The position numbers and the translations under genes were made by a program. A stretch of DNA of 64,000 nt, from NCBI GenBank assembly GCA_018398585.1, contig JAGTTD010000013.1:12561237-12625236 (forward strand). The letters run 5' to 3'. A model generated the notes under the pieces. It made no database searches. It was not told the DNA's origin and worked only from the letters and a program-made list of their open reading frames with translations. This document shows, in pieces, positions 29,953 to 64,000 of the stretch. This DNA is from Simmondsia chinensis (lineage: Eukaryota > Streptophyta > Magnoliopsida > Caryophyllales > Simmondsiaceae). Within the stretch, counting starts at the first letter, position 1. Every line of letters starts with the position of its first letter.

Positions 29953-30049
29953 CCTATTTATTTCGATTTGATAATATGACGTCCGCAATTAGATCTGAAA
30001 TTGAGAAGTTTGGTGGTCAAGTTTAAGGCAGGATCGCGTTAAGGGCCTC

Positions 30050-39804: not shown

Positions 39805-40220
39805 TGTTATGTTTGTGCTTAATTCACAAACGTAAGCTAGGATAAAGAGAATATGAGATGAGAAAGAATATAGAGTTTAGATGAGAGAAAGAAGGGAAAG
39901 AGATGAGAAAGTAGAGAGGATATCAAAGATATCAATTCATTCATCAAAGTTATAAGGTGACAAGCCTAAGCCTTCCTATTTATACTACTTACATGATATA
40001 TGGCCACCAACCACTCACTAAGCCGTCACTATTGACCGGCATTGACCACCTAAGCTTTAAACCTCACTTATTACATGACTTCACCAAAGCTTAAGCTACT
40101 AATTACAATATCACTAGCTATTACAATATCAACTAGCTATTACAACTCAATAGGCTCGATTCCACGCCTTATTACATTTATACTTTATTTCATATGCCCC
40201 CTACTATGAGAATCATAACA
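39805..40220 (-). repeat. 3' LTR of element A
   Basis: Similar to 43679-44125 but lacks about 30 bp present there (the stretch around gatctattacattgcatctaa). Confidence 0.95.
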
Positions 40221-40379
40221 ATACTCCCCCCTTTAAAAGATTCTTGTCCCCAAGAATCAAGAAGGAAGTTGAAGCTTGAAGAACCAATGCTACAATAGGA
40301 AAAACGAGCTAAACATCATAAGAGCCGCAGCAAACTTGGATGAAGAGCTGCAACCAGAATGCAGCAACATCTGAAGAAG

Positions 40380-40530
40380 CCTAAACACACCAGCAGCAGC
40401 AACTTAACCAATCAATCAACACATAAGCCTAAACACACCAGCAGCATGACAGCAACAGCACATCAGCAACAACAAGAGCACAACAGCAGCAGAAGAACAG
40501 CATACAGATTGCAGATCATCAGCAGCAGCA
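40380..40530 (+). repeat. CAG/CAACA-rich low-complexity stretch
   Basis: Repeated cagcagcagcaac and acaccagcagca words in the 3' untranslated part of element A; two ORFs here are products of the triplets. Confidence 0.7.
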
Positions 40531-40599
40531 CTCAGCATTAGCAACATTACACAACCCAAACTGAAAGCACACTCGTTGTCATTGCTGTCAACACTCGTC

Positions 40600-42720
40600 C
40601 GAAGGTCTACCCAGATCAAAGCACATCAGCTTGGCACCAATCACAGCTTCCATCTAGACTTTTAGTACCTGAACTTCTTTTTACCCAGCCCAAGCTTTCT
40701 CTTGCTGTTAGATGGCCTGAAATGCACATTAGTAGCTTGAGTCACGAGTTCCAATTGTCTCAACTACTTAAAGCCTTGAACTTCTTCACCTGGTTTAGGA
40801 GGAGGCTTGACATTCATGTTTGCACTTAGATAAATCAAAACTCCCTTTGAAAAAGGAAATAAATCATCCCGATCTTGCCGATCGGCATGCCGAAAGTGCG
40901 TTTTAGCTACTGGGATCTGATTTCTTGCTGATTTAACATGCTCTGCAGCAGTAACATCCAACTTATTCAGCTCACACAACCACTTACTGACCCAACTCAT
41001 GACATGCTCAACACATCCTTGATTGCTTTCCCATTGCATCGAAGTTGCTGCAGAATCCCAAAAGCTAAGCAATGCAGTCCCGATGCAAATCACCAATGCT
41101 GCAGCTCCCCCTTTGTGATCTGTACAGCAGCCAATCTTGCCTCAAATGACCAAGCTTTGCTTTAATATCAACTAACACAAGCATAAGTAACAGATAAAAC
41201 AAATGGAGACACCAGCCAAGCTTTGCTTCCTTGCTGATTTCTTCACTGATTTTAGCAAGAGTTTTCCTCGATCCTGCGTTGATCTTTTCCACCAAAACAT
41301 TAAGGATATAGTGGAGCTTGTGCAAATGATTTTTCCACTCAAATCCATCACAACAAATCACCCCAAACAGATTCAGAATTCGGCTTTGTGCACTGCCATC
41401 ACAAGGAACCCAGTTTTGTTTGTTGTGGACCATGAAGTGCACTCTTGCAGCTCGAGTGCAACGTTTCAGCAAAAATTCGACTCCTCTGAGCTTCATATAG
41501 TCTTGAGAGTCTTCTCCCGGATCAGGAGGCAACTTATCACTAAATTTTGCACTTGGATAAGTCACAATTCTACTCAAAAGAAGGAATAGATCATGTCGAA
41601 CTTGCCGATCGGCATGCCGATAGTACATTTCAGCCACTCTACACTCATAATCTCTCACCCCACACAAGAGACCTTGCTCAACCTCCAAGATGATGTTGTT
41701 ATGGACCCAAGTTAACACACCATCATGCCCAAAAGTGAACTTAGACACACTCTGCACAGCATTTGGTGATACTGCCGCAGCAACAACTATCTTTTTAACA
41801 GGATGACATTGCTCAACAGAGAAAGTGCCTCCATTCTGCATATAAGCTTGCCATGGGATAATACTTAACAGGTTTGGAGATGATAGCAACGAAATCTCAG
41901 CAGTGGCATCAATTATTTTGGTTGGAATCACAAAATCTGCAGCAACTACCCCTTGTACACCAGCATACATAGCTTCAGCATATACATCAGTAGAAGCAGC
42001 AGTTTGAGTTAACTTTTGTTGATCATCAAACCTCATAGGTTGCAACACAACTTTATGCTTCAATTTCTTCTTTGGAATCTTCTTTGTTTCCCAAAATTCT
42101 TTCAATGGGTCGTTAAGATGATTCTTCTTCACTTTACTCTTTGCACTCTTTATCATTCCCATGACATGAAAATCGTATTCCCATTCCGGAAGCATGTCAT
42201 ACTGTGGCTCATCCTCTTCAAAATACTCTAACTCTAGCAAAGAGTCTTTATAAAGATCATCACGTTCAACCTTAGGTTCATCCAACTCTTGTTCATCAAC
42301 TACGTCATTACCTTGATCCAATTCTTCTTCAACCACATTAAGTGGCTCCACAATGTACACTTCAGCTACTGCGGAAGAGTTTGGCCTTCAACATTGTTCT
42401 TGAATCTCAGCTAATTTCACTTCATGTTCCTCCTTTTGCTGATCCCAGAACTTGTTAATCCTATCCATCAATTCTTGTGATTGACAAATGACTTGATCAG
42501 ATTTCTCCAATACAATCGGCTAAGCTTGTTGTTCTATGTTCACGTTGTTTTGCTGGTTCATTTTATATATCCATTCAGCATTAGATTTCTGGTGTTGATC
42601 AAGCATTGTCATCAACCAATCCGAAATTGTTGCATCACAACCATCCATAATCGCTCTTAAAATTTCACACTGAATGATTTTCAAGTTAACCGCAGCACCA
42701 AGTATTGTTAAGATCGACAA
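40600..42720 (-). pseudogene. Unknown long ORF of element A
   Basis: Function unknown. On the minus strand one frame runs from 42720 to 41065 (552 codons) with stops at 42522-42520 and about 42391, then shifts frame at about 41096 and goes on to about 40764 and weakly to 40600. It starts helical and polar, turns acidic (EELDQGNDVVDEQELDEPK), then has the block shared with B and D: LPEWEYDFHVMGM, KSKVKKNHLNDPLKEFW, VVLQPMRFDDQQKLTQ. Then come MYAGVQGVVAADFVIP and AEISLLSSPNLLS. A module with YRHADRQVRHDLF, YPSA and PPDPGEDSQ occurs twice (about 41680-41490 and, changed, 40990-40770 with FRHADRQDRDDLF, YLSAN and PPKPGEEVQ). FDLGRPSDE follows at about 40620. I see no zinc knuckle, DSG, RT or DDE motif. 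A captured host gene or a very divergent gag are the alternatives. Confidence 0.8.
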
Positions 42721-43664
42721 TTATCTGGATTTCAAGATCGGGTTTAAGGATCACCGCATATTCAAACCCTACTGACGAACTTCGAGCAGAGGAAGTTTGA
42801 ACAAACCCTAACTGCAATGTTAGTTGATTAATTCGACCTAAACTTCTGAATTAAGCTCGACTCAAGCTCGCCATCAAGTCCTCAACTCAATACCTAAAGC
42901 GAATTACACGAACGAAATCAGATTTCAACAATTTTCGTTTCTCTTTTCCACTGTTAGATTTTTGCCTATGTTGTCAGAGTTTCGCCTAAGCAAATCATGA
43001 CTCGATAACATATAATTCTCAAAAATTACCACAGATTCTGATGAATTTCCACCACTTCTAAGCTTGTCACCACAATTTCATTACAATTTAGCAAGAGAAG
43101 CAGATTTGAATTGAGTTTGAGCTTGCAGCTCTGAAACAGGTACCTCAACTTCAGTTTCAGAATTGTAGAATCTGATTAAACCTCAATTCAACTTGTTTCT
43201 GGTCCTTTGATGTTGATGAAATGCAGTGTGGATTAATTAACTCACTTGTAACCTCTTCGTCATCGATCAAATGAGTGATCGATCAACGACAATTAGCTCA
43301 GCACCACTTCTTCAGCGACTCAAACTTGCTTCAGCACTAAACTTCTTCAGCACATTGCTTGATCGATTCCTATAAATTTCAATCTGAATCTGCTTGAGGT
43401 TGAATATACTCAACAATACTGATCAATTGAACTTTTGTTCTATGTAATTCACTCAATTATCATCTCAACTGCAACACCTCTTAATCACTTGCTAAAAACT
43501 GGTGCAACAACTGCCAAAACCACTTCAAAATTCAGATTTGAATTTTGATCACCAAATCTGAACTAAATTTGTAACACAATTGTTTTTATTGATTGATTGC
43601 AATACAATTAATCGTATTTTGTAATTTCTTTTCGGATACGAGCTTGATTCGGAAGCCAAACCTG

Positions 43665-43676
43665 GCTCTGATACCA
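43665..43676 (-). promoter_or_regulatory. Primer-binding site, element A
   Basis: Minus strand exact TGGTATCAGAGC, two bases from the LTR. Confidence 0.95.
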
Positions 43677-43678
43677 AT

Positions 43679-44125
43679 TGTTACGTTTGTGCTTAATTCA
43701 CAAACGTAAGCTAGGATAAAGAGAATATGAGAAGAGAAAGAATATAGAGTTTAGATGAGAGAAAGAAGGGAAAGAGATGAGAAAGTAGAGAGGATATCAA
43801 AGATATCAATTCATTCATCAAAGTTGTAAGATTACAAGCCTTTAAGCCTTCCTATTTATACTACTTACATGATATGATCTATTACATTGCATCTAACTCA
43901 TGCTATAGCCACCAACCACTCACTAAGCCGTCACTATTGATGGGCATTGACCACCTAAGCTCTAGACCTCACTTATTACATGACTGCACCAAAGCTTAAG
44001 CTACTAATTACAATATCACTAGCTGTTACAAGATCAACTAGCTATTACAACTCAATAGGCTCGATTCCACGCCTTATTACATTTATACTTTATTTCATAT
44101 GCCCCCTACTATGAGAATCATAACA
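43679..44125 (-). repeat. 5' LTR of element A
   Basis: TG...CA ends, TATA-like tataaatag on the minus strand at about 43860. Same family as the LTR at 50795-51255. Confidence 0.95.
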
Positions 44126-44130
44126 AGGTG

Positions 44131-46422
44131 TTGCTTGTATGAAGTTGGGAATGATATAAGTCTGAGCAAAAGCATCCTGATCATAAGATCTGATCACTTC
44201 AGTCATCCACTGTGATATAACTTACGAAATTGCAACACAAGAGGCTTCTGCTTCCCCCTCTTCCTGTCTTCTTGAAAGGGCATCTGCAACAGGATTATCA
44301 ACTCCTTTTCCTGTAGTCAATTGTATACTCCAACTCCAACATATTCATCAACCCTGTCCTTTGAACTCTTGCAGAGATTCTTTGCTCAAGCAAGTATTTG
44401 AGACTTTGGTGTCTGTTTTGATTACAAAATGACGACCTTCCAAGTAATGCCTCCATTTCTGAACTGCCAAGAGAATTTCCATGTATTCCTTCTCGTAAAT
44501 GGATAGCTTCTGATTCTTTGGACCCAAAGCCTGGTTGAGATAAGCCAATGGTCTTCCATTTTACGAAAGAACTGCTCCAATTCCACTACTGCAAGCATCA
44601 GTTTCCAATATAAAGGGCAGGCTGAAATCTTGCATTACCAATACTGGAGCCATTGTCGTAGCCTGCTTCAGCTGCGCAAAAGCTTCCTTAGCCAATTCAT
44701 TCCAATGGAAAGCCCCCTTCTTAAGCAGATTTGTCAATGGCTTTGCAATAATTCCATATCCAGCTATGAATTTGCGATAATAGCCTGTCAAACCCAAAAC
44801 CCCTCTTAGCTGCTTAAGAGATTTTGGTTCTACCAAACCTTCATAGCTTGAACCTTGCTTGGGTCTATAGCGACCCCATCAATAGAAATTATATGGCCAA
44901 GATACTCCACTTGTCTTTTGGCAAAGGTACATTTTAAGAATTTGGTAAATAACTTGTGTTGCCTCATGGTCTGAAATACCAAATCCAGGTGAGTAAGATG
45001 CTCCTGCAGAGTAGAGCTGTAGACTAAGATGTCATCAAAGAATACAAGCACAAATCTCCTTAAGTAAGGCTTAAACACAAGGTTCATCAATGCCTGGAAT
45101 GTTGCAGGGGCATTGGACAACCCAAAAGGCATCACCATGAATTCATAATGACCTTGGTGTGTTCTAAAAGCTGTTTTATGTATATCCTAGTCTTGCACTC
45201 GAATTTGATAATAGCCCTGCCTCAGATCCAGCTTGCTAAAATACCAAGAGCTATGAAGTTTATTCAACAGATCGTCTATAATTGGAATTGGGGAATTTAT
45301 CTTTAATTGTGAGATAGTTCAAGTGACGATAATCAATGCACATTTGTGAAGTCCCATCATTCTTTTTAACTAAGATTACCAGAGAACCAAAGGGGCTATG
45401 GCTTTGTCTTATGAATCTTGTCTTCAACAGGTCCTCAACTTGCTTTTCAATCTCATTCTTTTCTGAAAGAGGGTACTTATGAGGACGAAGGTTCACCGGA
45501 TTGGAGCCCTCCTTGAAGGTAATTGCATGATCAAGCTCCCCTTTTGGAGGTAAGGTCTCTAGCTATACAAACAAATCACCATACTCTTGAAGCAGAGAAT
45601 CCGCAGTTGTGTTGGAATCTAAAGCAGTGCTGGAATGCGAAGATGTGCTGGAATCTGTCTGATTGAGTAGAGTTGTCCTACCCATTGATAATTTCCCTTC
45701 TTCAGAACCTTTTGTAGACTCTTGCCTCTCATCAATTGGAGTTGATCTTGCTCCACATTGCTCTGTAACTTGATCTTTTGTCCTTCTCTCTCAAAGGATA
45801 CAGTGAGCTGGGAGAAATCAATAAGTATGGGGCTGAAGGACTTCATCCAATTAACTCCTAACACCATATGACAACCTCCCAACCTCAAAACTCTGAATTC
45901 ATACTCAAACTTGTGACCTTAAATCTTCCAATTGAACTTCTTACACTTCGTATGTGTCAAAATTGAATTCCCAATAACTACTGTGACAGCCAGAGGGCTA
46001 GTCTTGATCATTTCCTATCCCATAGCTCGTATAACCTTGGGAACCACAAAGCTATGTGTGCTCCTGCTGTCAATGAGTATCAATAAGTTACGTTGCCCAA
46101 CAACTCCCTTAATTCGAATGGAATTATTCGAGCCACTTCCTGTCAAAGCCTTTATAGAAATTTCAACTTCATTCTCCTCCTCAGAATCACCCTTAATCTC
46201 TTCCTCTTGCTCCCTAAAATCAAGCATGTCATTCTCCTCTGGCTCAGAAGCCTTTATTCTAGTAGCTGCCATGAGATACTTAGGGTCACACTTATGACCA
46301 AAGAAGTACTTCTGATTGCATTTAAAACAAAGCTTTTGAGGTCTTTTGTCTTTAGTACTGCTAGTTCTAATATTAGACTGAGTAAAGCATGCTGAAGATG
46401 AGCCACTTGCAGCATCTTTCAA
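44131..46422 (-). pseudogene. Zinc knuckle, protease, RT and RNase H of element F
   Basis: Minus strand. CFKCNQKYFFGHKC is the zinc knuckle (about 46330). Protease active site reads LIDSRSTHSFV, with Arg for the invariant Gly of DSG. Then [51 protein letters not shown] (45496-45260), [19 protein letters not shown] and [13 protein letters not shown] with the catalytic Asp pair (45138-44830), then [18 protein letters not shown]. RNase [16 protein letters not shown] and YEKEYMEILLAVQKWRHYL (44836-44348). The sequence to 44131 still reads as the end of RNase H (GKGVDNPVADALSR). Frames change and stops occur about every 100 codons. Confidence 0.9.
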
Positions 46423-46482
46423 TATCTGAGGGTCAGGAGCAGTTAATACTGAGCTCTCAACCTTCCTTGACTTTGAATAAGC

Positions 46483-47324
46483 TTAAGAAAGAATAGAAGG
46501 ATCAAATGCTTTAACCATGTTCTTGATTTTAGGCTTAAGTCCACTCACAAAGCTTGACACATAGTATGATTCCGGTGCCTCAAGATACACAGTCAACATC
46601 CTAGGTCGCAATCCTTCAAATCTTGTCATATGTTCCTTCACAGATGAGACTTGAGTGACCTTATTGAAGTTGTCCACTACTTCACCCACATCTTCATCCC
46701 CATATCTGTCACATAACTCATTTGCAAACTCAGTCCAAGTGATTGTAGGTCTACTGCACATCAAACTGTAATACCAGACTTCCAATTCTCCCCTCAAATA
46801 CATAACTGCCAACTCTACCTTCTCATGTTCTTCTATGTTGTAGAAAAGAAAATACCTCTCACATTTCCTTATCCATGATTGAGGCATTGTTCCTTCAAAG
46901 GATTATAAATTCACACGAGGCTGTCTAAAGCTATGACTCCTTGCACTAGATGCACTGTCATTATTGTCCATAGGAGGAGGTCGTGTATCACTGTTGTCCA
47001 CCACCGGTGGAGGTCTTGGATCAGGAGGTCTGTTTTGCTGATTTACAGGCAAGAGTATACTACCATTGACCTGTTGTTTCTGCCTTTCTATTTTCTGTTG
47101 CAATCCGTTAATTTGCTATAAGAACTCTTGAAATTGAGATTCAAACTTCTAATTCAAATCTTGCTGGAAGGTTTGCATCATATTCTGCATCATTTGCATC
47201 ACTTGATCCATATGATTTGGTTGATTAACTCCACTATCCTTGCCAGCAACTGCAGCAGCATAAGTAGCAACATTATTAGATGCATTGTTAGCTGCATAGC
47301 TCGAGTGTTAGGTCTACCAGCCAT
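46483..47324 (-). pseudogene. Gag of element F
   Basis: Start ATG at 47324 (minus, MAGRPNTRA, compare MADGVRTRSG in element E). A frameshifted N-terminal part contains a predicted helical stretch (LQQKIERQKQQV). The conserved capsid core 46887-46483 has SWIRKCERYFLFYNI, VELAVMYLRGELEVWYYSL, WTEFANELCDRYGDED and FVSGLKPKIKNMVKAFDP. The zinc knuckle is in the next segment (46422 on). Confidence 0.85.
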
Positions 47325-47449
47325 ACTCACCGATCGCCTGTTTCCAGCCAGATTGTCACTCAAACAATCAATTTCAGCACCTAGCCAGTTAAACTTTAAC
47401 AATCCAATCAAATTGAAGATCAATCAATCTGATCGCATGCAAGCTCAAG

Positions 47450-47461
47450 GCTCTGATACCA
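47450..47461 (-). promoter_or_regulatory. Primer-binding site, element F
   Basis: Minus strand exact TGGTATCAGAGC next to the 5' LTR. Confidence 0.95.
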
Positions 47462-47463
47462 AT

Positions 47464-47803
47464 TATTAAGGATCAAGATGAATCTTGATCTTAACATAGG
47501 AGAGAAAGAGGTAAGATTAGAAAAGAAGTGAAAGAGATGAGGAAGATAGATGAGAAAGAGTAATTCAAGATATTATTTCCTTCTTAAGAAATGACTCTTA
47601 TATGATAGCCTACTACTTATACCAATGCAATCAAGGACTAAACAATGAATCTAGACTCTATACTTAACTACCAACAAAGATCAGCCGCCAATATTGACTC
47701 AAAACAAGACTAACAAGGACTTAAGCAAAACTAACAACTGCCAACAATCTCCAACTGCCCTTCCCACCAAAACCAGCCTTTAATTTGAATCCGGGACATG
47801 ACA
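47464..47803 (-). repeat. 5' LTR of element F
   Basis: Partner of 38060-38422; 23 bp shorter through small deletions, and its plus-strand start has mutated from tg to ta. Confidence 0.95.
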
Positions 47804-48640: not shown

Positions 48641-48642
48641 TT

Positions 48643-48660
48643 TGGCGCCATTAACAGAGA
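48643..48660 (+). promoter_or_regulatory. Decayed primer-binding site, element G
   Basis: tggcgccattaacagaga resembles the Athila/Tat-type site that begins TGGCGCCGTTGCCGGGGA. Eight leading bases are intact and the rest is mutated. Confidence 0.6.
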
Positions 48661-49000: not shown

Positions 49001-49002
49001 TT

Positions 49003-50794: not shown

Positions 50795-51255
50795 TGTTAT
50801 GATTCTCATAATAGGGGGCATATGAAATAGAGTATAAATGTAATAAGGTGTTGAATCTAGCTGATGGAGTTGTGTAAGCTAGTTGATATTGTAATTAGAG
50901 TAAGTCTTGATGTAATTAGTAGCTTAAGCTTTGGTTAAGTCATGTAATAAGTGAAGTCTAGAGCTTAGTGGTCAATGCCGGTCAATAGTGGCGGCTAAGT
51001 AGGTGGTTGGCGGGTATAGCATGAGTTAGATGCAATGTAGTAGATCATATCATGTAAGTAGTATAAATAGTAAGGCTTAGGCTTGTAATCATGTAACTTT
51101 TGATGAATGACAAATTGATATCTTTGACATCTCTCTCTCAACTTCTCATCTCCTTTCCCTTCTTGTCTCTTCTTAACTCTAAATCCTATCCTCATCTTGT
51201 ACTCTCACTATCCCAACCAAGGTTAAGGTCCAAGAGTAATATTTGAAGCTTAACA
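50795..51255 (+). repeat. 5' LTR of element D
   Basis: TGTTATGATTCTCATAATAG ... AGCTTAACA; TATA box gtataaatag at 51061; pyrimidine-rich U5 (ctctctcaacttctcatctc). Nearly the inverse of the LTRs of A. Confidence 0.95.
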
Positions 51256-51257
51256 AT

Positions 51258-51269
51258 TGGTATCAGAGC
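51258..51269 (+). promoter_or_regulatory. Primer-binding site, element D
   Basis: Exact TGGTATCAGAGC two bases after the LTR. Confidence 0.95.
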
Positions 51270-51479
51270 CTTGATTTGGCTTCCAAATCAAGGTCTAAAT
51301 TAGAAAAATCACAAAATCTGATTGATTGTGTTGCAATTAATCAACAAAAACAGTTTGATACTGATTTGGTTCAGTTTTATATGATCAAGAATTCAATTCT
51401 GAATTCTGATCGTGAAGAGCTTTGTGTTATTGCCTTACTGATCAGCAAGGCCGGGGAGTTTCTTTCTGTTGGGATAAAA

Positions 51480-52042: not shown

Positions 52043-52044
52043 AT

Positions 52045-52056
52045 TGGTATCAGAGC
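52045..52056 (+). promoter_or_regulatory. Primer-binding site, element B
   Basis: Exact TGGTATCAGAGC two bases after the LTR. Confidence 0.95.
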
Positions 52057-53128
52057 CTTGATTTGGCTTCCGAATGAAGCTCATATCCAAAAAATGCAAA
52101 ATCCGATTGATTGTGTTGCGATTAATCAACAAATACAGTTGATACTGATTTAGTTCAGTTTTACTTGATCAAGAATTCAATTCTGAATTCTGTTCGTGAA
52201 GACTTTTGTGGACTGTCTTATGCATTGTGAACTGCACGGCCTGGGAGTTGCTTCCGGTTGGGATATACTTGATTGAGTTACATTGAAGAAAGTTGATTTG
52301 ATCAGTATTTGTTAATTTCATTCAACATCAATGCCGATTCAAATTGAATTCAATAGAATTAATCAAGCATCAGCTGCTGAGTTGTGTACTGATGCATAGC
52401 ATGAGTTGCTGAAGTTTGAGTGCTGAACTTAATTGTTCTTGATCAATTATTCATTTGATCAGTAAGAGAAGAAGTTAAAAGTGAGCTATTTGATCCACAT
52501 TATACTTGACCATAATCAAAAGATCAGAAACAAGTTGCATTGAGGTGATTTTAGATTCTACAATTCAGAAATTGAGGTTGAGGTAACTATTTTCTGAACT
52601 ACAAGTTACACTCTTGATCTGAATCTGCTTTTGTTGCTGAATTGTGATGAAATTGTGTTGATAAGCATAGAAGTGGTGAGAATTATCAGAATCTGCGTTG
52701 AATTGTTAAGAATTATATGTTATTGAGTCGAGCTTTGCTTAGGCGAAAATCTGACAACGAACTGATCACTGAAAGTGTTGAAATCCGATTTTATCCTTAA
52801 AGATTGTAGTGAATTGTGTGTTTAAATCATCATTACAGACAAAAATCGAACCTAATTCAGATGCTTAGTCTGAATTATTCAAGAAAACACCTCTATTAGG
52901 GTTTGTTCGAAGTTGGGGTTCGTTCGCGAATTCTACAAGTTTTGGTTTGTAATCAGTGACGTTTATTGAACCATTATCAAGGGATTGTTTGTACGAATGA
53001 AGAAGTAGAACTTCATTAAGCAATCGGTTGTGGAAGAGTGGCGAAACAAGTCTTCCTCTTCTGCGATTTTCGAACTCATATCCTGCGAACTGAGTTGTTC
53101 CAGATTGAAGTTGTTGTTCATTGTCAAT
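52057..53128 (+). other. Leader of element B
   Basis: About 1.07 kb without a coding frame. It is closely similar to the D leader (62544-63400), for example attcaacatcaaagc/atgcc, gttgctga, tgaggttgaggtaac, agaattatatgttatt and tagggtttgttcga. A packaging signal for a non-autonomous element would be expected here; that is inference. Confidence 0.7.
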
Positions 53129-54652
53129 ATGGCTGAGTTGACTGAGCAGTTGAAGAAATTAAGGCAAGAATTGAGACAAGAACGTGAAGAATATGAGCGG
53201 AAAAGGAGACAGGATTGGGACGATAAGATGCGGCGACTTATGATTCAGCAATGTTTAGCTTATCCTAACATCAGTCGTGCTGGTGTTCTTGATGCAAATG
53301 AGTTTCCGGAGCTAGTGGATAGCGTTAGACAACGGAAGTTCCGTGTTGAGTGAAAAGAGAGAGTGGAATCTGTTGCCATTGGAGATAAACTCGTCCCCGA
53401 TAATCCCGAAATTGATGAAAACAAGTTAGAAGAACCTGAGTTTGAACAAGATGATCCTTATGAAGACTCTTTGCTAGAGTTAGAGTATCTTGATGATGTT
53501 GGGGCACAGTATGACATACATCCGGAATGGGAATACGATTTTCATGTCAAAGGAATGTTAAAGAAAGCAAAGAATAAGATGAAAAGGAACCATCTAAATG
53601 AAGCGTTGAAGGATTTTTGGGGTAAAAAGAAGTTGGCAAAGTAGAAATTGAAGCGAGAGGTTGTGTTTCAGCCGAGGATGCTTGATGATCAACAAGAATT
53701 AACTCAAGATGCTACTCTTACTGAGGCAGAAGCTAGTATACAAGATTCAGTTATGTATGCCGGTATACAAGGATTGGTTGCTGCAGAATCTGTGATTCCA
53801 ATTGAAAAACTTGAAGTTACTGCTGAAATATCACTGACTACATCTCCAAATCAGTTAAGTAATACTCCATGGCAAGCTGGAAAGCAGAATCGAAGCACCT
53901 TCACTGCTGAGCAACCTCATTTTGCTGGGAAAGTTGAGGTTACTGCGGAAGTAACACTAGAAGCATCACAAAATGTGTTAAGCACTTCGCCAAGGCATTT
54001 TGATACTCATAATCAGCAATTGCTTTGTGCTGGCAGTAATGTATGTGACACAAAACAAGGTGCACGGAGTGGAGAAATAGTGTGTTCAAATACATATTCA
54101 TATGACGAGTTGCCTCCTGATCTGGGAGAAGATTCTCAAGTTTATATGAAGCCGGAAAGAGTCAATTTTCTGTTAAAGAGAAGTAATCATGTTGCGAGGG
54201 TGCGTTTCAAGGTTCAATGAAGGAGAAGCATGGTGTCTATACAAGCAAATGATCTGTTGGAAGTCTGTAAATTCAGTAAAGCACTGAAACAGATTCTGGT
54301 TCAAACCAAAATCAGTAAAATCGATGCTTTAGCTGATGTAATTGATGTTGGAAGTCCCTTTGATCCGGGGAAGGTAGATCGTGATTGTAACAAGCTGAAA
54401 CATGCGGCCGAGTTCGAGGAAGGGCTCAAGCAAACTGCTAAAATCAGTTTCCGAGTTCAATTTGGGCCAAGACTGATTTCTGGAAGAATTCTTAACATGT
54501 TAGAAGTTCACAAATCGGGTACTGATCTAAAAATGAGATTCGTTCAGCCAAGATCCATTAGCATTAAAGGTCTTTGGGTTATTTTCGATAGTGGAAGACC
54601 CCCTGAGGTCTTGGTGGAATCTGGTAGCGGCAGTTTTTCTGGTATGGCTGTG
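53129..54652 (+). pseudogene. Unknown long ORF of element B, first half
   Basis: Function unknown. From the ATG at 53129 one frame runs to the insertion point of E, with stops at 53351, 53642 and 54218 only. Residues 1-45 are heptad-like and rich in Arg, Glu and Lys (LRQELRQEREEYERKRRQDW), a likely coiled coil. An acidic part (PEIDENKLEEPEFEQDD, ED/EL-rich) leads to the family block HPEWEYDFHVKGM, NKMKRNHLNEALKDFWGKKK, VVFQPRMLDDQQELTQDA. MYAGIQGLVAAESVIP follows, then two similar units EVTAEISLTTSPNQLSNTP and EVTAEVTLEASQNVLSTSP. Then LPPDLGEDSQVYMK and VNFLLKRSNHVARVRFKV, and near the end IFDSGRPPEVL. Element E sits exactly between two codons at 54652, and the frame resumes unbroken at 60381. 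Confidence 0.85.
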
Positions 54653-55052
54653 TGGTACGATTTAATAAATTTTACTTGTAATGCATTTTTATTTTTAGTA
54701 TTACTTTTGATTAGAGTCTATATGATGTAATCAATTAAAATTGCACTAGTTAAAATGGATTTAGACAAATTCAGCAGCAAGTTGCAGCCTGTGCAAATAG
54801 AAATTCAGCTAGAGTTTGTTACAAGCAGAGGAATATTCGGCTGTTGCCTAGCTAGGGTTTTGATCTGAATTCATGTATAAATGGAGTGATTATAGTGTAA
54901 TTTTGATCAGGAAATCAAATGAAATCTTATTTCTAAGGGAATTCTCTATTTCTCATCTCATTTCTCTATTTTCTCATCCCCTTCCCTTCTTTTATCATCT
55001 CAAACTCTCTTCTACAAGGTTAGATTTCGAAATTAATTTTGGGAAGCTAACA
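54653..55052 (+). repeat. 5' LTR of element E
   Basis: Starts tggtacga (tgttacga in the other copy), TATA-like atgtataaatgg at 54874, ends gggaagctaaca. Confidence 0.95.
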
Positions 55053-55054
55053 AT

Positions 55055-55066
55055 TGGTATCGGAGT
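55055..55066 (+). promoter_or_regulatory. Primer-binding site, element E
   Basis: TGGTATCGGAGT, two changes from the initiator-Met consensus. Confidence 0.8.
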
Positions 55067-55123
55067 CGGTTTTATCAATCAACAACATTGATTGAGCTGT
55101 TAAAAAAAAAAATTCAAAGCAAA

Positions 55124-56215
55124 ATGGCAGATGGAGTTCGGACAAGGTCAGGAGCTGGAGGAGCAAACGCAACTGGGTCCAATCTGGATTTCGTTGCTGC
55201 TATCACTAGAAACCCTATAGCTGGACCTCAAAATGCCACTAAGGAAGATCTTCAAGAGATGCAGCAAGGGTTTAATCAGAGAATGGATCAGATTTTGGCA
55301 TTGTTGATGGATAAAGATACTAAAGATGCCAAGGTGCAAGACCGATTGCAACACATTGAGGAGAAACTTGAACACTTGCAAGAACAAGTTAACAAACATG
55401 GTGAATCAAGTGTTGAGGCCATCCTCAAACCCGCAACTCAGATTCATCTGACAGTGGAAGTCGATCAGCAGCAACCGAGTAGCGAACAGCAGCAAGTCAG
55501 CTTGGACAGACCTCAAGAAGGAATGCACACCCGAGGTAAATCTCCTATGTTACAACCTGGCGTAGGACCATCAATTAACATTAGGTCAGCTGCAAATCAA
55601 CCTATTCGACTTGAAATTAATATAGAAAATCACAATCGAGTATCCGGACCTGCTAACTACCGGGCCAATGCTGAAAATTCAGAACAGAACAGCAGGCTAT
55701 ATTATTTTGTTACGCACCAAAATGTATCAGACGATGTGTTCGATCATATTGATAGACCACCTGATCAACCATATCAACATAGGACCGTGACCAATGACAA
55801 CACCACTGGGGGTAAGAGTGGCTCTTACAGGCAGCCAAGGGTAGAAATCGACCCTTTTGATGGAAAGCAACCGGAATCTTGGCTTAGGAGATGTGATCGA
55901 TACTTTTTATATTATAATACCTGAGGGAAGCTCCAACTAGCTGCAGTCCATCTTCATGGTGATTATGAGGTTTGGTACTATAGTTTGTTGAAAAGCAAAC
56001 CACATCTTTCTTGGGGCCTTTTCGTAGAAGAGATGTGTGAACGGCATGGTGAAGGAGAATCAATGGATGTTGTGGATAACTTCAACAAGTTGGTCCAAAC
56101 ATCAAGTGTGAGAGAATGCATGCTTAGATTTGAGAGCAAATTTGATGTCAGTTCTGGCCATTGCTCCCGAGGATGCCGAATCATACTACGTTTCTTGCTT
56201 TATGAGTGGCCTTAA
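55124..56215 (+). pseudogene. Gag of element E
   Basis: ATG at 55124 (MADGVRTRSG). A helical stretch follows (LQHIEEKLEHLQEQVNKH, about residues 75-95), then a Gln/Pro-rich linker. The capsid core starts PFDGKQPESWLRRCDRYFLY. A TGA at 55922 interrupts it and the same frame goes on (GDYEVWYYSLLKSKPH, LFVEEMCERHGEGESM). At about 56130-56160 the reading shifts to the pol frame, where capsid ends as SCFMSGLKPRIKNMVKAIGP. Close relative of the F gag. Confidence 0.9.
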
Positions 56216-58043
56216 GCCTAGGATCAAAAACATGGTAAAAGCCATTGGTCCTAAGACTTTGTCAAGCGCTTACAACAAAGAAAAATTGATTGAAGCAACT
56301 CAAGTCCCTTCATATGACAATAGAAAGTATCATACCAGCAGCAAACTGAGACCTGTGCAGCAGAACAAGAGTTTCCGCAGTAAAAACAGTGACAGATTTT
56401 CAGCCAGATTTTGTTTTCGATGCAACCAACCCTATCAACCTGGGCATAGGTGCAAAGCACAAGCACTTATGTATGCAAAAGGGAGCCGAGTCCCTGCTAA
56501 AAATGAAGCTGACAGTACCGAGTCAGAATTAGAAGAGACCGAATGCAATTTACAAGGCAACTCAAGTGATGACGAGGTCGAGATCTCCATGAAGGCTCTA
56601 ACCGGAAGTGGGGCTCATAACACAATCAAAATCAAGGGATGGGCTGGAAAACACTCCATTATTATCCTCATTGATAGTGGAAGCACTCATAGTTTCGTTA
56701 ACTCGAAGTTGATTAAGAAGGTCAAACATGAAGTGACGAAAACGCACCCTTTGGCAGTCATGGTAGCTGATGGGAACTCCTTGACAACAAAAAACAAGTG
56801 CATAGCCTTCCCTTGGTCTATGCAAGGCCATCATTTCACCTTCAATTTCCGAGTGATTCCCTTGGGTGGTTGCGACATGGTGCTCGGAGTAGATTGGATG
56901 AGGACCTTCAACCCGGTTGTCTTTGATTTCGATAAAATGATCGTGGCTTTTGAAGTTCATGGCACCAAGGTGTCTTTGCAAGGCATATCCAAGGAAGCTC
57001 AGCTCAAATTAATCGAGGCAAAGGATGTGCAAGGTGGAATTAAAAAGAAGGGGATACAGTGGATCGGGCACTTATTCATGGTGAGCTCGGTTATGCAGCA
57101 ACCGATTCATCCTCTTGCTGTTCAGACCTTAATTAATGAGTTCGGGGACATCTTTGAAGAGCCTAAGAGTCTCCCTCCTCAAAGGAGTGTGGACCACGCC
57201 ATACCTTTACGAGGAAATGCCGACCCGTTCAAAATTAGGCCATATCGGTATCCCCATGGCCAAAAAGCCGAGATAGAGAGGCAAGTGGAGGAGTTGCTTC
57301 GGTTGAGCTTCATTTGACCAAGCTGAAGTCCATTTGCTTCACCCATGATCCTTGTAAAGAAGAAGGATGGAACAGCCCGTATGTGCATCGATTACCGCCG
57401 TTTGAATACACTAACCGTGAAAGACAAGTTTCCGATACCGGTCATAGATGACTTGCTTGATGAGCTTCATGGGGCGTGCTTCTTTTCCAAGCTGGACTTA
57501 AGGCAAGGATATAATCAGATCCGAGTTCTTGAATCAGATATTTACAAGGCCTCTTTTCAAACTCATCATGGCCATTTCGAGTTCGTTGTTATGCCTTTTG
57601 GTCGAACAAATGCTCCGGCCACTTTCCAAGAGTCTATGAATGACGTCTTTAAGCCTTATTTGAGGAAGTCAGTCCTGGTATTCTTCGATGACATACTGAT
57701 CTACAGTCCCACATATGAAGCCCACCTCACACAGCTTCGACAAGTATTCATCTTGATGCGACAACACCGGTTTTTTGCAAAATTGTCCAAGTGCTCGTTT
57801 GCTCAAAAGAAGCTTGAATATCTGGGTCATATCATCTCATCAGAGGGCGTAGCTACTGATCCTAACAAGATCCGAGCAATGCAAGAATGGCCAAACCCGA
57901 TCACTTTGAAGCAATTGCGAGGATTCTTGGGATTGACCAGATATTATCGAAAATTCATTAAAGGTTTCCATTGCCAAACCCTTAATGGAGCTCTTGAAGA
58001 AGGATGCTTTTGGGTGGAACGAGAAGTCTCAGGCTGTTTTTGA
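56130..58043 (+). pseudogene. Zinc knuckle, protease and RT of element E
   Basis: One frame from 56130 to 58043 with two nearby stops (57315 and 57324) and a frameshift close to 57960. Zinc knuckle CFRCNQPYQPGHRC at about 56410. Protease LIDSGSTHSFV at about 56671, with the catalytic Asp intact, and VLGVDWMRTFNPV later. [54 protein letters not shown] with the first catalytic Asp, [30 protein letters not shown] with the Asp pair (about 57680), and [18 protein letters not shown]. Confidence 0.9.
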
Positions 58044-58490
58044 AGCTCTCAAAGCCGCTATGTGTGCAGCACCGGTTTTGACAATGCCCAATTTCACCGA
58101 AGGCTTCGTTTTAGAGACCGATGCAAGTGGTACTAGTATTGGGGCTGTTCTCTCTCAAAGAGGAAGGCCCATCGCATATCTAAGCCAAGCTCTAAGCCCT
58201 AAACATCAGGCGATGTCGACGTACGAAAAGGAGTACCTCGCAATTCTCTTAGCCGTGGAGAAATGGAGGCATTATTTGGAGGGTCATAAATTCACCATTC
58301 GAACGGATCACCAAAGCCTCAAATATCTCCTCAAATAGAAGATCGTGTCAAGAATTCAAAAGAAAGGCTTAATGAAAATGTTAGGCCTTGATTATGATAT
58401 CGAGTATAGAAGTGGCAAAAAAACGCAGCTGCAGATGCACTGTCAAGGCGTTTTGAGGACACTGTTTCAGGCACATGCACAGCCATTTCA
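57965..58490 (+). pseudogene. RNase H of element E
   Basis: Frame 57985-58338: FVLETDASGTSIGAVLSQRG with the first catalytic Asp, YEKEYLAILLAVEKWRHYL with the Glu, and FTIRTDHQSLKYLL with the next Asp. TAG at 58336, then the end of the domain in mixed frames (ADALSRRF-like around 58430-58460). Confidence 0.9.
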
Positions 58491-59726
58491 GTGGTAATTC
58501 CTTCTTGGGTCGAAGAGCTACACAAGTCCTATGAGGGGGATCCATTTGCTCGTGAAAAGGTGGCTGCTGCAGTGCTCCAGACCGACGCGAAAATTGCTGC
58601 AGAACACAGCGAACCTACAGTGCAGAATGGTCTACTGCGTGTTCACGGCAAACTGTATATTGGTGCTGCTATCGACTTGAGAAAACAGGTCATCCGAGCC
58701 TCACACGACGCTGCTTGGGGAGGTCACGAGGGTGTGGAAGGCACCTATCAACGAATTAAAGCTTATTTCACATGGCCGAGCATGAAAAAGGATGTAAGCG
58801 ACTATGTGAAATCTTGTGAAGTTTGCCAACAAACAAAATTGGGAGATCCGTGATACAAAGGACTTCTTCAACCTCTTCCCATTCTGGACGGTGCTTGGGT
58901 TCACATTAGTATGGATTTCATTGAGTGGCTACCGAAATCCGAAGGCAAGGAGGTCATATGGGTCGTGGTGGATCGCTTCACCAAATATAGTCATTTTCTT
59001 GCTCTGACTCGACCCGTTACTGTGGAGAAGTTTGCAAAGTTCTTCCTGGACAACATCTACAAGCTACATGGATTGCCCCAATCCATCGTGTCGGACCGGG
59101 ACAAAATCTTCACAAGCAACTTTTGGAGGGAATTGTTCAAGCTGATGGGAACTACGTTGGCTCTTAGTTCTTCCTACCATCCTCAAACGGATGGGAAAGC
59201 CGAAAGAGTCAACCAATGTGTGGAGCAATATCTCCGGAGCATGGTCTTCTTGAAGCCCAAGGAGTGGAACCGTTGGCTTTCCTTAGCCGAATTTTGGTTC
59301 AACACACATTTCCACACAACCATTGGCACTACACCCTTCCGAGCATTGTATGGATACTCTCCACCTTCTCCTATGCTGATCCGACAGCCCAAACTCACTG
59401 ATTCAGCAGCAACACAACTTGTGCAACAGAGGAGACAGATCTTGCAATCGCTTAAGGACAATCCCCAACAAGCTCGGGCCCGTATGAAGCATTATGCGGA
59501 TAAGAGGAGGGTAGACAAGAACTATGACATCGGGGACATGGTCTACCTCAAACTACAACCTTATAGACAATCAACTATGGCTGTTCGACGCAACGTCAAG
59601 TTGTGTGCTCGTTACTTCGGTCCTTACAAAATTCTGGAGAAATTTGGCAATGTGGCGTACAAGCTTGACTTACCCTCACATTCTTACATTCACCCTGCGT
59701 TTCATGTGTCCCTCCTTAAAAAATAG
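58491..59726 (+). pseudogene. Integrase of element E
   Basis: One frame broken only by TGA at 58851. HDAAWGGHEGVEGTYQRIK and CEVCQQTK form the HHCC finger. The core triad is complete: SMDFIEWLPKSEGKEVIWVV (Asp), SIVSDRDKIF (Asp) and DGKAERVNQC (Glu). The C-terminal part includes ALYGYSPPSPML, ARMKHYADKRRVDKNYDIGD, VYLKLQPYRQSTM, LCARYFGPYKILEKFGNVAY and HPAFHVSLLKK. Integrase inserts the cDNA into the host genome. Elements F and J have lost the Glu; E keeps it. Confidence 0.9.
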
Positions 59727-59957
59727 GTTAACAAAAATGCCGATATGACGCAAAAGCTGCCCATAGCTGAAGCAAATGGCGTCTTACTACAGCAACCAAA
59801 CTCTGTCTGAGCCGAACGAGTACTGCAGCTGCACAACCGGAAAATACACCAAGTCTAAGTCACTTGGAGCAACTTAAACGAGCATTTTACAGCATGGGAG
59901 GACTACAACTTCTTGAAGAGCCTATTTCCGAGCTTTGCTTCTTGAGGGCAAGAAGAT
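59727..59957 (+). pseudogene. Chromodomain-like tail of element E
   Basis: In frame with integrase after a TAG at 59724: ERVLQLHNRKIHQV, VTWSNLNE and WEDYNFLKSLFPSF, broken by further stops. The VxWxxL...WE pattern is that of chromodomain-type tails of chromoviruses, thought to steer insertion to chromatin marks. Confidence 0.65.
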
Positions 59958-59974
59958 TCTCAAGAGGGAGGTAA

Positions 59975-60375
59975 TGTTACGAATTAATAAATTTTACTTG
60001 TAATGCATTTTTATTTTTAGGATTACTTTTGATTAGAGTCTATATGATGTAATCAATTAAAATTGCACTAGTTAAAATGGATTTAGACAAATTCAGCACC
60101 AAGTTGCAGCCTGTGTAAAGAGAAATTCAGTTAGAGTTTGTTACAAGCAGAGGAATATTCGGCTGCTGCCCAGCTAGGGTTTTTGATCTGAATTCATGTA
60201 TAAACGGAGTGATTATAGGGTAATTTTGATCAGGAAATCAAATGAAATCTTATTCCTAAGGAAATTCTCTATTTCTCATCTCCTTTCTCTATTTTCTCAT
60301 CCCCTTCCCTTCTTTTCTCATCTCAAACTCTCTTCTACAAGGTTAGGTTTCCAAATTAATTTTGGGAAGCTAACA
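59975..60375 (+). repeat. 3' LTR of element E
   Basis: Matches 54653-55052 with roughly 19 differences by eye. Confidence 0.95.
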
Positions 60376-60380
60376 CTGTG

Positions 60381-61896
60381 CTGGTCAGTGATGTGGCAAG
60401 TGTATTGAGCTTCAAATTCAGTCTGTACAATAATCGAGCTTTGTGCAGAGAACAAGCTCCATTAATGCAACCAAATTTAAGTCATCTTGAAGTTATGGGG
60501 CTTGGTGGTTGGTATGATTTTGGAATACAAAAGCCTTTGGGTGAAAATTCAGAATGGTGGCAGTATGGAATCACATTGCAGAATTATGGTTCATTTGTGA
60601 CCTACTGTGGGTGTTTTGAATAGAAAAATTATATGCACAAGCTTCAATATTCTCTTAATGTTTTGAAGGAAAAGGTTAGTGCAACTTTAAGGATAATTCT
60701 TGCTAAAGTTAAAGTGGAAATCAGCAAGGGAGCTTGGAAAAGATCAGCTCTAGAATGGGAAGAGTTTACAGCTGATTAAGAATTCTGTTGGTGTCTCCAC
60801 TTGTTATATTTGTTACTCATGCTTGAGATGGTTGACAAGAAAGCAAAGCTTGATCATTTGAGGTATATTTGGTGGCTGGATGAGTCTTGGATTCAGGAAG
60901 GACTTGAGAACAGGCTAGAAGGTGTGAGCTGCAACATTGATAGTGTTGATTGGAATGTTTTGGGTGTTCGAGTTATGAGATTGTGCATTTGGCATTCAAC
61001 ATTGGTTTATGAACTCTTAGTTGGTGTGATCTATGCAAGAGTTTGGGAAGAAAAGGCTAGAGCTTTCAGATCTTACAAGTTCATAATCAAGATTCAAGCC
61101 ATAGAAGTAGTAGAGGCTGTTGAAATTCATTGGAGCATTACAATTCTTTCACTGTTAGCAGTAAATGAGATGCTCAAATGGAATGTGATTGGTGCTATTA
61201 TGATTTTGGGAAGATGTCATAAGTTGTTTGCATCAAGAAGCTTCCATATGGACAAGAATTGAGTTGAAATTTGTGATTTCCGCAGCCATGAGTGGTCTTG
61301 GTTAGATACTGCTGAATATTTGGATTCTGCAGCAAAATATGTGGGATTGGGAAGCAATTGAGAGTTTGTTGAGCATGATCGAAGATGGTTTAGTAAGTGG
61401 ATGTTTAAGCAATACAAATTTTGGATAAGATCCAAGATGAAATGGTTGCAACTGTGTTCTTATGGGATCTTAATGTTTTTCGTCACCGAGATCAAGATAT
61501 GGGGTTGTTTGAGCTATAATTGGGAATCTGTGTAAGCAAATTTTGATCCTTGGTTCTCTTGGTTTGAGTTTGGAAGGCCTCCCGAGATATCGAATTAGTT
61601 TATATGCAGTTTTATAGGTTCAATGACATTCAAACTCTGTTATGCAGCATTTAACCTGCAGAATTATAGGATTGTTGCTGCATTTTGTGATTCTCGGTAG
61701 CAAGACAGAGTTTTGAGCTGTGTTAACTGCATCAAGAGGAGTTGTGGATGTGTTGTTGGTGGTTGGTTTGATCAGTGCAGACCTCCTGAAGAAAATTATA
61801 TGTTCAAACGCAAACATTGTGTCGAAACAAGCATCATACATTGTGCACTGCTGCAATTTCAGATTGAGTTGCTTCAAGGAGTCTTACCAGCTGCAT
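60381..61896 (+). pseudogene. Unknown long ORF of element B, second half
   Basis: Continues the frame of 53129-54652 after element E. Stops at 60621, 60777, 61260 and several later, yet the same frame can be followed to about 61896, just before the polypurine tract. Recognisable stretches are SVLSFKFSLYNNRALCREQA, LGGWYDFGIQKPLGENSEWW, LHLLYLLLMLEMVDKKAKL (hydrophobic) and HLRYIWWLDESW. FEFGRPPEIS (about 61570) and FDQCRPPEENY (about 61768) repeat the FDSGRPPEV of the first half. The hydrophobic stretch and the following lysines also occur in A (LHLFYLLLMLVLVDIKAKL). No known domain identified. Confidence 0.75.
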
Positions 61897-61975
61897 AATT
61901 CCAGCCAGAAGTGATATTCATTGTTACAACTCTCTTCTATTCTTGAGGACAAGAATGTTTTCAAGGGAAAGGGAA

Positions 61976-62538
61976 TGTTATGATCCAAGAATCCGAGGCA
62001 TGAGCTGAGGGTGGCTGTGTGGCTGTCCTGCTGCTAGGCTGCTGCTGTTAGCTGCTGTGTGCTGCGTTGGGGACTGCCTTGCAGCCATTTAATGATCATT
62101 TAGTGTAGGGAAGTTGTATTAGCTTGTTGATATTGTAACTAGAATGAGTCTTGATGTATTAGTTGCATAAGTCTCTTGTTAAGTCATGTAATAAGTGAAC
62201 TCTAGTGTCATGAAGCCTTGGTGTTCATTGGCCGGTCAAGGTTGGCGGCTAGTTAGTTAGGTGGCGGGTAAGTCGGTTAGGCCATGGTTCCAAATGCATT
62301 GTATCTCTAGATATTTGTAGTCTTAAGCCACCCTAGGAGGAAGTAGTATAAATAGATGGCTCTAGCTTGTATTCAAAACAACTTTTGATGAATGAATTTG
62401 ATATCCTTTGATATCTCTCTCTACTTCTCATCTCCTTTCCCTTCTTATCTCATCTCAACTCTATATTATCTTCTCATCTCATACTTTCACTATCCCAACC
62501 AAGGTTGAGGTACAAGAGCAATCTTTGAAATCTTAACA
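61976..62538 (+). repeat. 3' LTR of element B
   Basis: Partner of 51480-52042; same length; TATA box gtataaatag at 62345. Followed by TSD TAAAA and the resumed leader of D. Confidence 0.95.
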
Positions 62539-62543
62539 TAAAA

Positions 62544-63407
62544 TTGATTGAATTATATTAAGGAAAGTATAATTGATTAGTATTTGTTGATTACATTCAA
62601 CATCAAAGCTGATTCAGATTGAGTTCAGTAGAGTTGATCAAGCATTAGTTGTTGTAGTTGAGTTGTGAAGCAAAGCATTAGTTGCTGAAGTTGAGTGCTG
62701 AAGCATGTTCGAAATTGATCAAATAATCACTGGATCAGTTGGAGAAGAAGTTAAGTGAGCTATTGATCAACATTATAATTGAATCATAACATCAAAAACA
62801 AGCTGCATTGAGGTTAATTCTGATTCTACAATTCAGTAACTGAGGTTGAGGTAACGGTTTCTGAACTTCAAGTTGCAATTAGATGAGAATTTGTGTTTGT
62901 TGCTGGTTTGTGATGAGATTGTGTTGATAAGTATAGAAGTGGTGAGAATTCATCAGAATCTGCGTTGATTCTTAAGAATTATATGTTATTAAGTTGAGAT
63001 TTGCTTAGGCGAAAATCTAATATTGAACTGAGCACCGAAAGTGTTGAAATCCGATTTCATTTTTGAAGATTGCTTGAATATTGTGTTGAGGACTTGATTA
63101 TGATCTAGAATCGAGCTTAATTCAGAATTGTAAGTCTATATATTCAAGAAAACATCGCAGTTAGGGTTTGTTCGAGTTCTCTGAGGCGAAATTCTGCATA
63201 TTCATATTAGGGTTTGTAATCAGTGACGATTATGGAACCGTTAGTAAGAGATTGTTTTGTGCAAACGAAGGAGTATAATTTCTTTAAGCAATCATCAGTT
63301 GAAGTGATTCAAATCGAATTTGGTTCCCCTGCGAACTGAGCTGGATCTTATCTCTGCGAACTGAGCTGTTCCAGATCGAAGCATTGTTGTTCATTGCAAA
63401 TATGGCT
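62544..63407 (+). other. Leader of element D, resumed
   Basis: Parallel to 52261-53128 in B. No coding frame. Two near-identical words, ctgcgaactgagctg, precede the ORF (63330-63370). Confidence 0.8.
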
Positions 63408-64000
63408 AGTATGGATGATGATGGCTCTTGTCAATCAGTGATGAGTGATTATTGGGAGAAAATAAAGCTAGAATGGAGGCAAGAACGTGAGGAGTTTTGG
63501 CATAAAAAGAAACAGGAATGGGACAAAATGTTTGCAAACATCAATCGAGATTGTGTTGGTGTTCTTGATGCCAATGAGCCCTCAGAGCTAATGGATAGTG
63601 TTATACAAGAAGAGATCAATGTTGAGCAAAAAGAGGAAGTTGGAGTAGAATCCGTTGTTTTTGAAGTCGAATTCAACCACAATGCTGAAATTGATGAACA
63701 CAAGTTAGAGGAACCTGAGTTTGAACAAGTTGATCATTATGAAGATATTGAGTTACAGCATGACATGTTTTCGGAATGGGAGTACGATTTTCATGTCATG
63801 GTGATGATAAAGAAAGCAAAGAGTAAAGTGAAGAGGAATCATTTAAACGAAGCATTGAAAGATTTTTGGGGTAAAAAGAGGATTACAAAGCCGAAATTGA
63901 AGCAGGAGGTTGTGTTTCAGCCTAGGATGCTTGATGATCAATAAGAACTAACTCAAGATGCTAATTTTACCGATGTATATGCTGGTATACAAGGTTCAGA
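63408..64000 (+). pseudogene. Unknown long ORF of element D, first part
   Basis: ATG at 63408 (the frame is open from 63384). MASMDDDGSCQSVMSDYWEK, then WRQEREEFWHKKKQEWDKMF (coiled-coil-like), GVLDANEPSELMDSVIQEE, EIDEHKLEEPEFEQ, FSEWEYDFHVMVM, KSKVKRNHLNEALKDFWGKK, KPKLKQEVVFQPRMLDDQ. A TAA at 63942 stands where B has CAA. It lacks the stops that B has at 53351 and 53642, so the copies decayed independently from an ancestor with an open frame. The window ends inside it. Confidence 0.85.

Follow-up and report, generated by a model that had tools for sequence, protein, structure and literature searches.

A gag-pol-less long terminal repeat retrotransposon family of Simmondsia chinensis that probably keeps a long reading frame of its own

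Non-autonomous long terminal repeat (LTR) retrotransposons are often regarded as coding-free parasites, and the interior of one class of them, the LARDs, is usually described as non-coding. The design that concerns us here has already been published for RLG_Beth of Avena, the non-autonomous partner of the CRM element RLG_Ava, in which a large unknown protein is found in an element with a gypsy partner (PMC13270711). We have analyzed a stretch of 64,000 nucleotides from Simmondsia chinensis (contig JAGTTD010000013.1, from here on the window), in which three LTR elements, called A, B and D, contain a single long sense open reading frame (ORF) in the place of gag-pol. Judging from sequence comparisons, A, B and D quite probably form a non-autonomous family with a selected ORF of its own, coding for an accessory protein, and are moved by a Ty3/gypsy element of the type of their neighbors E and F (Table 1).

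The non-coding interior of LARDs contrasts with the apparently selected frame of ca. 1,000 codons in A, B and D, and we do not assign them to that class because of the open frame and its frame-preserving insertions and deletions (indels). In other respects they look like LARDs, which are longer than 4 kb and have LTRs, a primer binding site (PBS) and a polypurine tract (PPT) but no gag-pol (PMC6696364). The TR-GAG elements are likewise non-autonomous and have a single ORF, but this codes for GAG, whereas the ORF of A, B and D has no gag match, so that two other elements of the window, G and H, are closer to them (PMC8704663). The gypsy-type wheat elements RLG_Sabrina and RLG_WHAM, which lack reverse transcriptase (RT) and integrase (INT) and are described with RLG_Wilma, have mainly the termini, the promoter motif and the PBS in common with their partner, a pattern to which A, B and D conform in termini and PBS, and some Sabrina variants also contain unique coding segments; however, they encode GAG, and A, B and D show no gag (PMC9744471). 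ORFs of unknown function that are kept in most copies of a family, as here, include the env-like ORFs, gene23 of Grande and TRP28 of Retand, but such additional plant ORFs are described as accompanying gag-pol, and those of Grande and Retand as antisense, whereas the ORF of A, B and D is sense and alone (PMC7264820, PMC11963269). The likeness to RLG_Beth, which is centromeric in oat, is one of design (PMC13270711), and RLG_Beth has a named partner, whereas that of A, B and D is proposed from two elements in 64 kb. The element design is therefore known from RLG_Beth and the protein of A, B and D is unrecognised, although a search of the open-access literature cannot show that the ORF family is unpublished.

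A and B are non-autonomous LTR retrotransposons by their LTR pairs, target site duplications (TSDs), PBS, PPT and interiors devoid of gag-pol domains. The LTRs of all three elements have TG...CA ends and a TATA-like TATAAATAG (found by eye), the three have the primer site, and A and B also have 5-bp duplications and PPTs. We take the 13-nucleotide primer site to be the complement of the initiator-methionine tRNA; ARAGORN found no tRNA within the window with which it could be compared. A preliminary description of this DNA had credited all three elements with the full set of signals, which was right for A and B but for D extended only to the 5' LTR and the primer site: the 3' end of D lies beyond the window and hence its PPT and 3' LTR are outside the sequence seen, and its gag-pol-free interior is judged as far as the window end. 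The start of D had also been placed, wrongly, at the 3' LTR of B, while D is in fact the outer element.

Behind a common leader (ca. 1.1 kb in B from the LTR to the first candidate ATG) the three copies enter a long sense frame, with candidate starts at 42648 (A, minus strand), 53129 (B) and 63402 (D). The frame of B amounts to about 1,000 codons and runs to about 61900; it is interrupted by E, and its two parts are in phase, with one codon ending at 54652 and the next starting at 60381 when the 5-bp duplication is discounted. For the three forward frames, the stops per codon were 34/526, 59/526 and 2/526 in A, 3/508, 34/507 and 59/507 in B before E (53129-54652), 2/293, 22/292 and 24/292 in B after E (60381-61259) and 1/199, 15/198 and 26/198 in D, where 199 codons remain to the window end, while the leaders of A, B and D have 18-30 stops in each forward frame. 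The tail of the B frame (61260-61900, ca. 210 codons) is far more decayed, with 6 stops in 213 codons where the other two forward frames have 8 and 19, and the frame of A is shifted near 41065-41141, with a continuation of 125 codons in a second frame. An ancestor with an open frame of some 1,000 codons, as proposed in the preliminary description, is thus supported by the stop counts per frame and strengthened by the indel test given below; the conserved blocks on which the proposal was built (PEWEYDFHV and FQPRMLDDQQ among them) are present in the frames of A, B and D, the stop positions do differ from copy to copy, and the frame of B has about the length claimed, although its last ca. 210 codons are much decayed. 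A 163-nucleotide unit occurs twice in the ORF region of A (40749-40911 and 41476-41638, minus strand, 71% alike), encoding RHADRQ...PPxPGE, and part of this ORF looks built from repeats.

The indels tell ORF and leader apart. Between B and D the ORF has indels of 30, 30, 27, 6 and 3 nucleotides, every one a multiple of three (the last lies at the slice end and is backed by the alignment used for Ka/Ks), while multiples of three were 2 of the 16 indels in the B/D leader (one of the 16 an end gap) and none of the 20 in the A/B leader. Counting distinct clean indels, including a 12-nucleotide gap of A in the conserved block, this gives 6/6 for the ORF vs 2/36 for the leaders (Fisher test, 5e-6), or 7/9 vs 2/36 (2.6e-5) if three gaps from a poorly aligned A/B stretch are added; restricted to indels of at least 3 nucleotides, the figures are 6/6 vs 2/8 (0.0097) or 7/9 vs 2/8 (0.057). 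Slice-end gaps of 21, 41, 468 and 508 nucleotides were excluded as alignment ends. The ratio of nonsynonymous to synonymous changes (Ka/Ks) was 0.42 for B/D (182 codons), 0.57 for A/B (292) and 0.50 for A/D (141); bootstrapping put the upper limits at 0.68-0.77. Ks between copies (0.49-0.77 over the whole aligned ORF, 0.26-0.48 in the strict conserved block) is much larger than the LTR-LTR divergence within A or within B (ca. 0.03), which indicates that most of the divergence, and the keeping of the frame with it, is older than the insertions. The most likely reading is that the frame was kept by selection in replicating source lineages and is not that of a passenger gene fragment.

Having the cis signals but none of the enzymes, A, B and D would have to be copied by something else. 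The LTR tails of the three elements and the blocks preceding the 3' LTR in A and B match those of E and/or F (0/200 shuffles, anchored on A, B or D), I and J, two LTR families of the same window that served as controls, do not match these tails and blocks in either orientation, and A, B, D and F have one and the same 13-nucleotide primer site. Autonomous and non-autonomous pairs have been recognized by PBS, LTR termini, promoter, activity period and subfamily structure (Wicker et al., PMC9744471), and of these the PBS and the conserved LTR termini connect A, B and D with an E/F-type element. Kimura two-parameter (K2P) distances between LTRs, one copy each, were 0.032 (A), 0.027 (B), 0.044 (E) and 0.069 (F). 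The tails, pre-LTR block and primer site in common with E and F, and their absence from the control families, make mobilization in trans by an E/F-type Ty3/gypsy element likely; this helper is a type, drawn from two elements in 64 kb, and the copy that acted may be another one. E is chromovirus-like only through its relatives (chromodomain PF00385 in 45 of the 120 integrase matches listed, counted by hand). Two short pieces of the E tail gave no Pfam match, and the pre-LTR tail EDKxxFKG, tried as a possible common end of chromovirus pol, was present in only one of the 120 listed integrase-type proteins (last 45 residues, many of them maybe incomplete), so that we label E as Ty3/gypsy and not as a chromovirus.

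Not all the evidence points in this direction, and the following weighs against it. When the base changes were kept and scattered, this null gave median Ka/Ks values of 0.55-0.77, from which the observed ones are not clearly lower: null values fell at or below those observed in 106/500 and 129/500 cases for A/B and in 279/500 for A/D, and B/D alone stands apart (17/500 and 23/500). The dN/dS check on the conserved block that the preliminary description had asked for, run here on A, B and D, accordingly came out divided, below 1 in all pairs (strict block: A/B 0.59 and 0.55, A/D 0.81, B/D 0.30 and 0.27) but separate from the null in B/D only, and Ka/Ks is a weaker sign of selection than the stop and indel counts. 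In the poorly aligned A/B stretch there are gaps of 5 and 64 nucleotides that are not multiples of three, although together with a 12-nucleotide gap they sum to 81. At the DNA level the ORF is not consistently more similar between copies than the leader: identity for A/B is 71% in both, and for B/D the leader (77%) lies between the conserved block of the ORF (84%) and its N-terminal part (70%). As to the helper, other shuffles gave 1/1000 for each of the B-E and B-F pre-LTR matches, 1/500 for the B-E LTR tail and 1/200 for the E-A pre-LTR block, the LTR tail of A also matches that of G (0/200), the primer site of E differs at 2 of its 13 positions, and the LTR bodies of E and F do not align any further with those of A, B and D.

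With these points weighed, the history that we favor would be as follows. An ancestral gypsy-type element would have lost gag-pol, keeping LTRs, primer site and PPT, and would carry in its place the leader and the single long sense ORF. RNA polymerase II would transcribe such an element from the LTR, where the TATA-like sequence lies, the ORF would be translated, as selection on its frame suggests, and the element RNA would be packaged in particles of an E/F-type Ty3/gypsy element. Reverse transcription primed by the tRNA, for which the signals are seen, would be followed by integration with the 5-bp duplications observed for A and B. The predicted role of the ORF product is that of an accessory protein acting on its own RNA or particle, for example in packaging, stability or nuclear entry.

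A short motif, F[DE]x[GCR]RP[PS][DE], occurs three times in B, always in the ORF frame, once in G, ca. 125 nucleotides ahead of its 3' LTR, and as a weaker candidate in A. The strict pattern found 5 sites in the window vs 0 in 20 shuffles, and a second one 4 sites vs 1 in 20 shuffles; both were composed after the sites were known and are thus suggestive but no proof. When the reference consisted of the three B copies plus that of A, G scored 30.75, the next best site outside A, B and D 12.0 and the best of 10 shuffles 16.5; for the three B copies its score was 33.7, compared with at most 24.3 among 6 shuffles, while with one B copy its score of 31 did not exceed the shuffles (maximum 35). The motif of A itself scored 16.7 (three B copies) and 22 (one B copy), within the shuffles, and is therefore only a candidate. 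Among the pieces of B and of G behind its gag-like ORF the lowest shuffle ranks were 3/200 (B_53645/G_post2 and B_54221/G_Cterm) and 5/200 (B_54221/G_post1), the rest being higher, and the pre-LTR block of G matches that of B (score 37, 0/200 shuffles) and not those of E or F. The 5' ORF of G is probably gag-like, by DNA similarity to the gag-matching stretch of H, although G itself stays below the gag cut-off of Pfam (Ty3_capsid, E=0.047). All this suggests a C-terminal module of the ORF common to elements with gag but no visible pol. The ORF of A also contains a hydrophobic segment, LGWCLHLFYLLLMLVLVDI (41164-41220, minus strand, mean hydropathy 2.17), with a counterpart EFCWCLHLLYLLLMLEMVD in B (60780-60836, plus strand, 1.39; two other B segments reach 1.68 and 1.53), which is a possible membrane helix.

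Several other origins of the ORF can be weighed against these data. It might be an additional ORF, env-like or other, which an autonomous ancestor had downstream of pol and ahead of its 3' LTR and which remained when gag-pol was deleted; G, having a gag-like ORF and a C-terminal relative, would then be an intermediate that lost pol only. The motif and the EDK tail found just before the 3' LTR in G, together with the motif copies towards the 3' end of the B interior, and perhaps of that of A, would agree with such an origin, as would the putative membrane helix LGWCLHLFYLLLMLVLVDI, a trait described for env-like ORFs (PMC7264820). We consider it unlikely, since E leaves no room for such an ORF (about 250 nucleotides from integrase to LTR, and similar by eye in F) and the relation to G consists of a short motif that is not significant with one B copy alone. 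That the ORF is a strongly diverged gag-like structural protein, and the elements semi-autonomous ones of the TR-GAG or Sabrina/WHAM type, appears less probable still, even if its N-terminus is charged and helical-looking by eye and G, which has a gag-like ORF, carries a similar motif, FDSRRPPD, and a pre-LTR block matching that of B. Some 1,000 codons are long for a gag, no zinc knuckle was seen, and none of 10 ORF pieces in Pfam or 5 in NCBIfam reached the curated cut-off, whereas the same kind of Pfam scan identified gag in F and H and, in E, retroviral protease, RT, RNase H and integrase along with its zinc domain (the N-terminal gag piece of E had no gag match). A few weaker Pfam matches (DUF3405, E=0.001 to A, Uso1_p115_C, Phage_TTP_11, TAPR1-like and SSFA2_C), like a single NCBIfam match, fell short of the curated score and were therefore regarded as chance. 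Of the 60 sensitive pairwise alignments, 40 were against gag, RT and INT pieces of E, F and H, and none of these 40 ranked lower among its shuffles than 5/200 (a B piece with the gag N-terminus of E), about what 40 tests should give.

Capture of a host gene, known from plant LTR elements such as maize Bs1 (PMC7264820), is very improbable here: the ORF is in all three copies, which split well before insertion, and a protein search of a 5.8-billion-sequence set, admitting only proteins of 0.55-1.75 times the length of the piece so that long full-length relatives fall outside, had no match at E<=1 for a 440-residue piece of A (best 7999 candidates by shared words) or a 213-residue piece of D (46 candidates). 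This set holds plant proteins, as a control with the integrase of E gave 1829 matches at E<=0.001 among 2247 candidates, with named plants among the 120 listed. A viral contig collection yielded no confirmed relative for two ORF pieces, nor for the integrase of E, and is consequently uninformative. A sequence search of PDB with four pieces left two without match and two with weak ones, at E=1.3 and 0.21, that we attribute to chance; an AlphaFold2 model of the 440 residues of A, from six alignment rows, was too poor to use (mean predicted local distance difference test 42.8, predicted template modeling score 0.23). The preliminary description, which saw no gag-pol motif and did not recognise the protein, agrees with these profile and sequence searches. 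A more speculative extension of the accessory-protein reading, offered tentatively, is that the ORF founded a family of proteins peculiar to plant LTR elements devoid of gag-pol, built from repeats and recurring FDxGRPPE modules; such a protein might redirect, or let the element compete for, the particles of a gypsy partner to which the element is unrelated, and might have been exchanged between families such as A/B/D and the gag-bearing G.

Table 1. Coordinates of A, B, D and associated elements in the window.
Feature	Positions	Strand	Remarks
Element A, complete non-autonomous LTR element	39805..44125	-	Inserted in gypsy element F; TSD CACCT at 39800-39804 and 44126-44130
A 5' LTR (TGTTATGA...TAACA)	43679..44125	-	LTR pair K2P 0.032
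A PBS TGGTATCAGAGCC	43664..43676	-	From sequence
A ORF region	41068..42648	-	From candidate ATG 42648; two stops, then 440 open codons (42387-41068)
Weaker motif candidate in A	40597-40620	-	Does not exceed shuffles
A PPT	40224..40234	-	From sequence
A 3' LTR	39805..40220	-	From repeats
Element B	51480..62538	+	Gypsy element E nested inside; TSD TAAAA at 51475-51479 and 62539-62543
B 5' LTR	51480..52042	+	LTR pair K2P 0.027
B PBS TGGTATCAGAGCC	52045..52057	+	From sequence
B ORF, first part	53129..54652	+	508 codons, 3 stops
Motif FDSGRPPE, first copy in B ORF	54584..54607	+	Further copies at 61563-61586 and 61767-61790, same frame
B ORF, second part	60381..61900	+	In phase with first part by coordinate arithmetic; decayed after 61260
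B PPT	61963..61975	+	From sequence
B 3' LTR	61976..62538	+	From repeats
Element D 5' LTR (outer element)	50795..51255	+	From repeats
D PBS	51258..51270	+	From sequence
Element D interior, resumed after B	62544..64000	+	ORF from candidate ATG 63402 to window end
Element E, Ty3/gypsy	54653..60375	+	Protease, RT, RNase H, integrase; TSD CTGTG; candidate type of mobilizing partner
Element F, Ty3/gypsy, host of A	38060..47803	-	Pfam gag match; TSD CCTTC; candidate type of mobilizing partner
Element G, separate LTR element	13862..17315	-	132-codon ORF near 3' end: WFDSRRPPD, then EDKGEFKGKG before LTR

Sequence and repeat analysis shows the plant LTR elements of this region nested in one another: B is inserted in the leader of D, E in the ORF of B (a copy of its 5-bp duplication lies at 60376-60380) and A in F. 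E lies inside B, yet its LTR divergence is slightly larger (K2P 0.044 vs 0.027), the reverse of what the nesting order predicts, which is probably a sampling effect. H (about 27008-29312, plus strand) is an LTR element related to G whose gag matches PF03732 (8.3e-08); three further ORF pieces of G and H were scanned and none matched Pfam, no pol was seen, and both elements look TR-GAG-like. H is cut by J (29313-32309), an LTR element with LTRs 91% alike (K2P 0.063), the TSD GAACT and an interior of some 1.8 kb in which a copia-like gag and protease-like ORFs can be made out by eye. I (5920-12270), with a pair of 969-bp LTRs (K2P 0.046) and a single ORF of at least 130 residues in a 4.4-kb interior, is possibly another non-autonomous element. 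At 21148-21265 (plus strand) there is a 5S rRNA match just over the cut-off (42.8 bits vs 38); Cassandra-type terminal-repeat retrotransposons in miniature carry 5S-like LTRs, and this may be one of them.

The conserved N-terminal block, the repeated motif and a plausible type of partner at the same locus give handles for tests of the function of this protein. Taken with RLG_Beth, the family suggests that this design arose more than once or is old. A maintained protein of about 1,000 codons would mean that non-autonomous LTR elements can keep a gene of their own.

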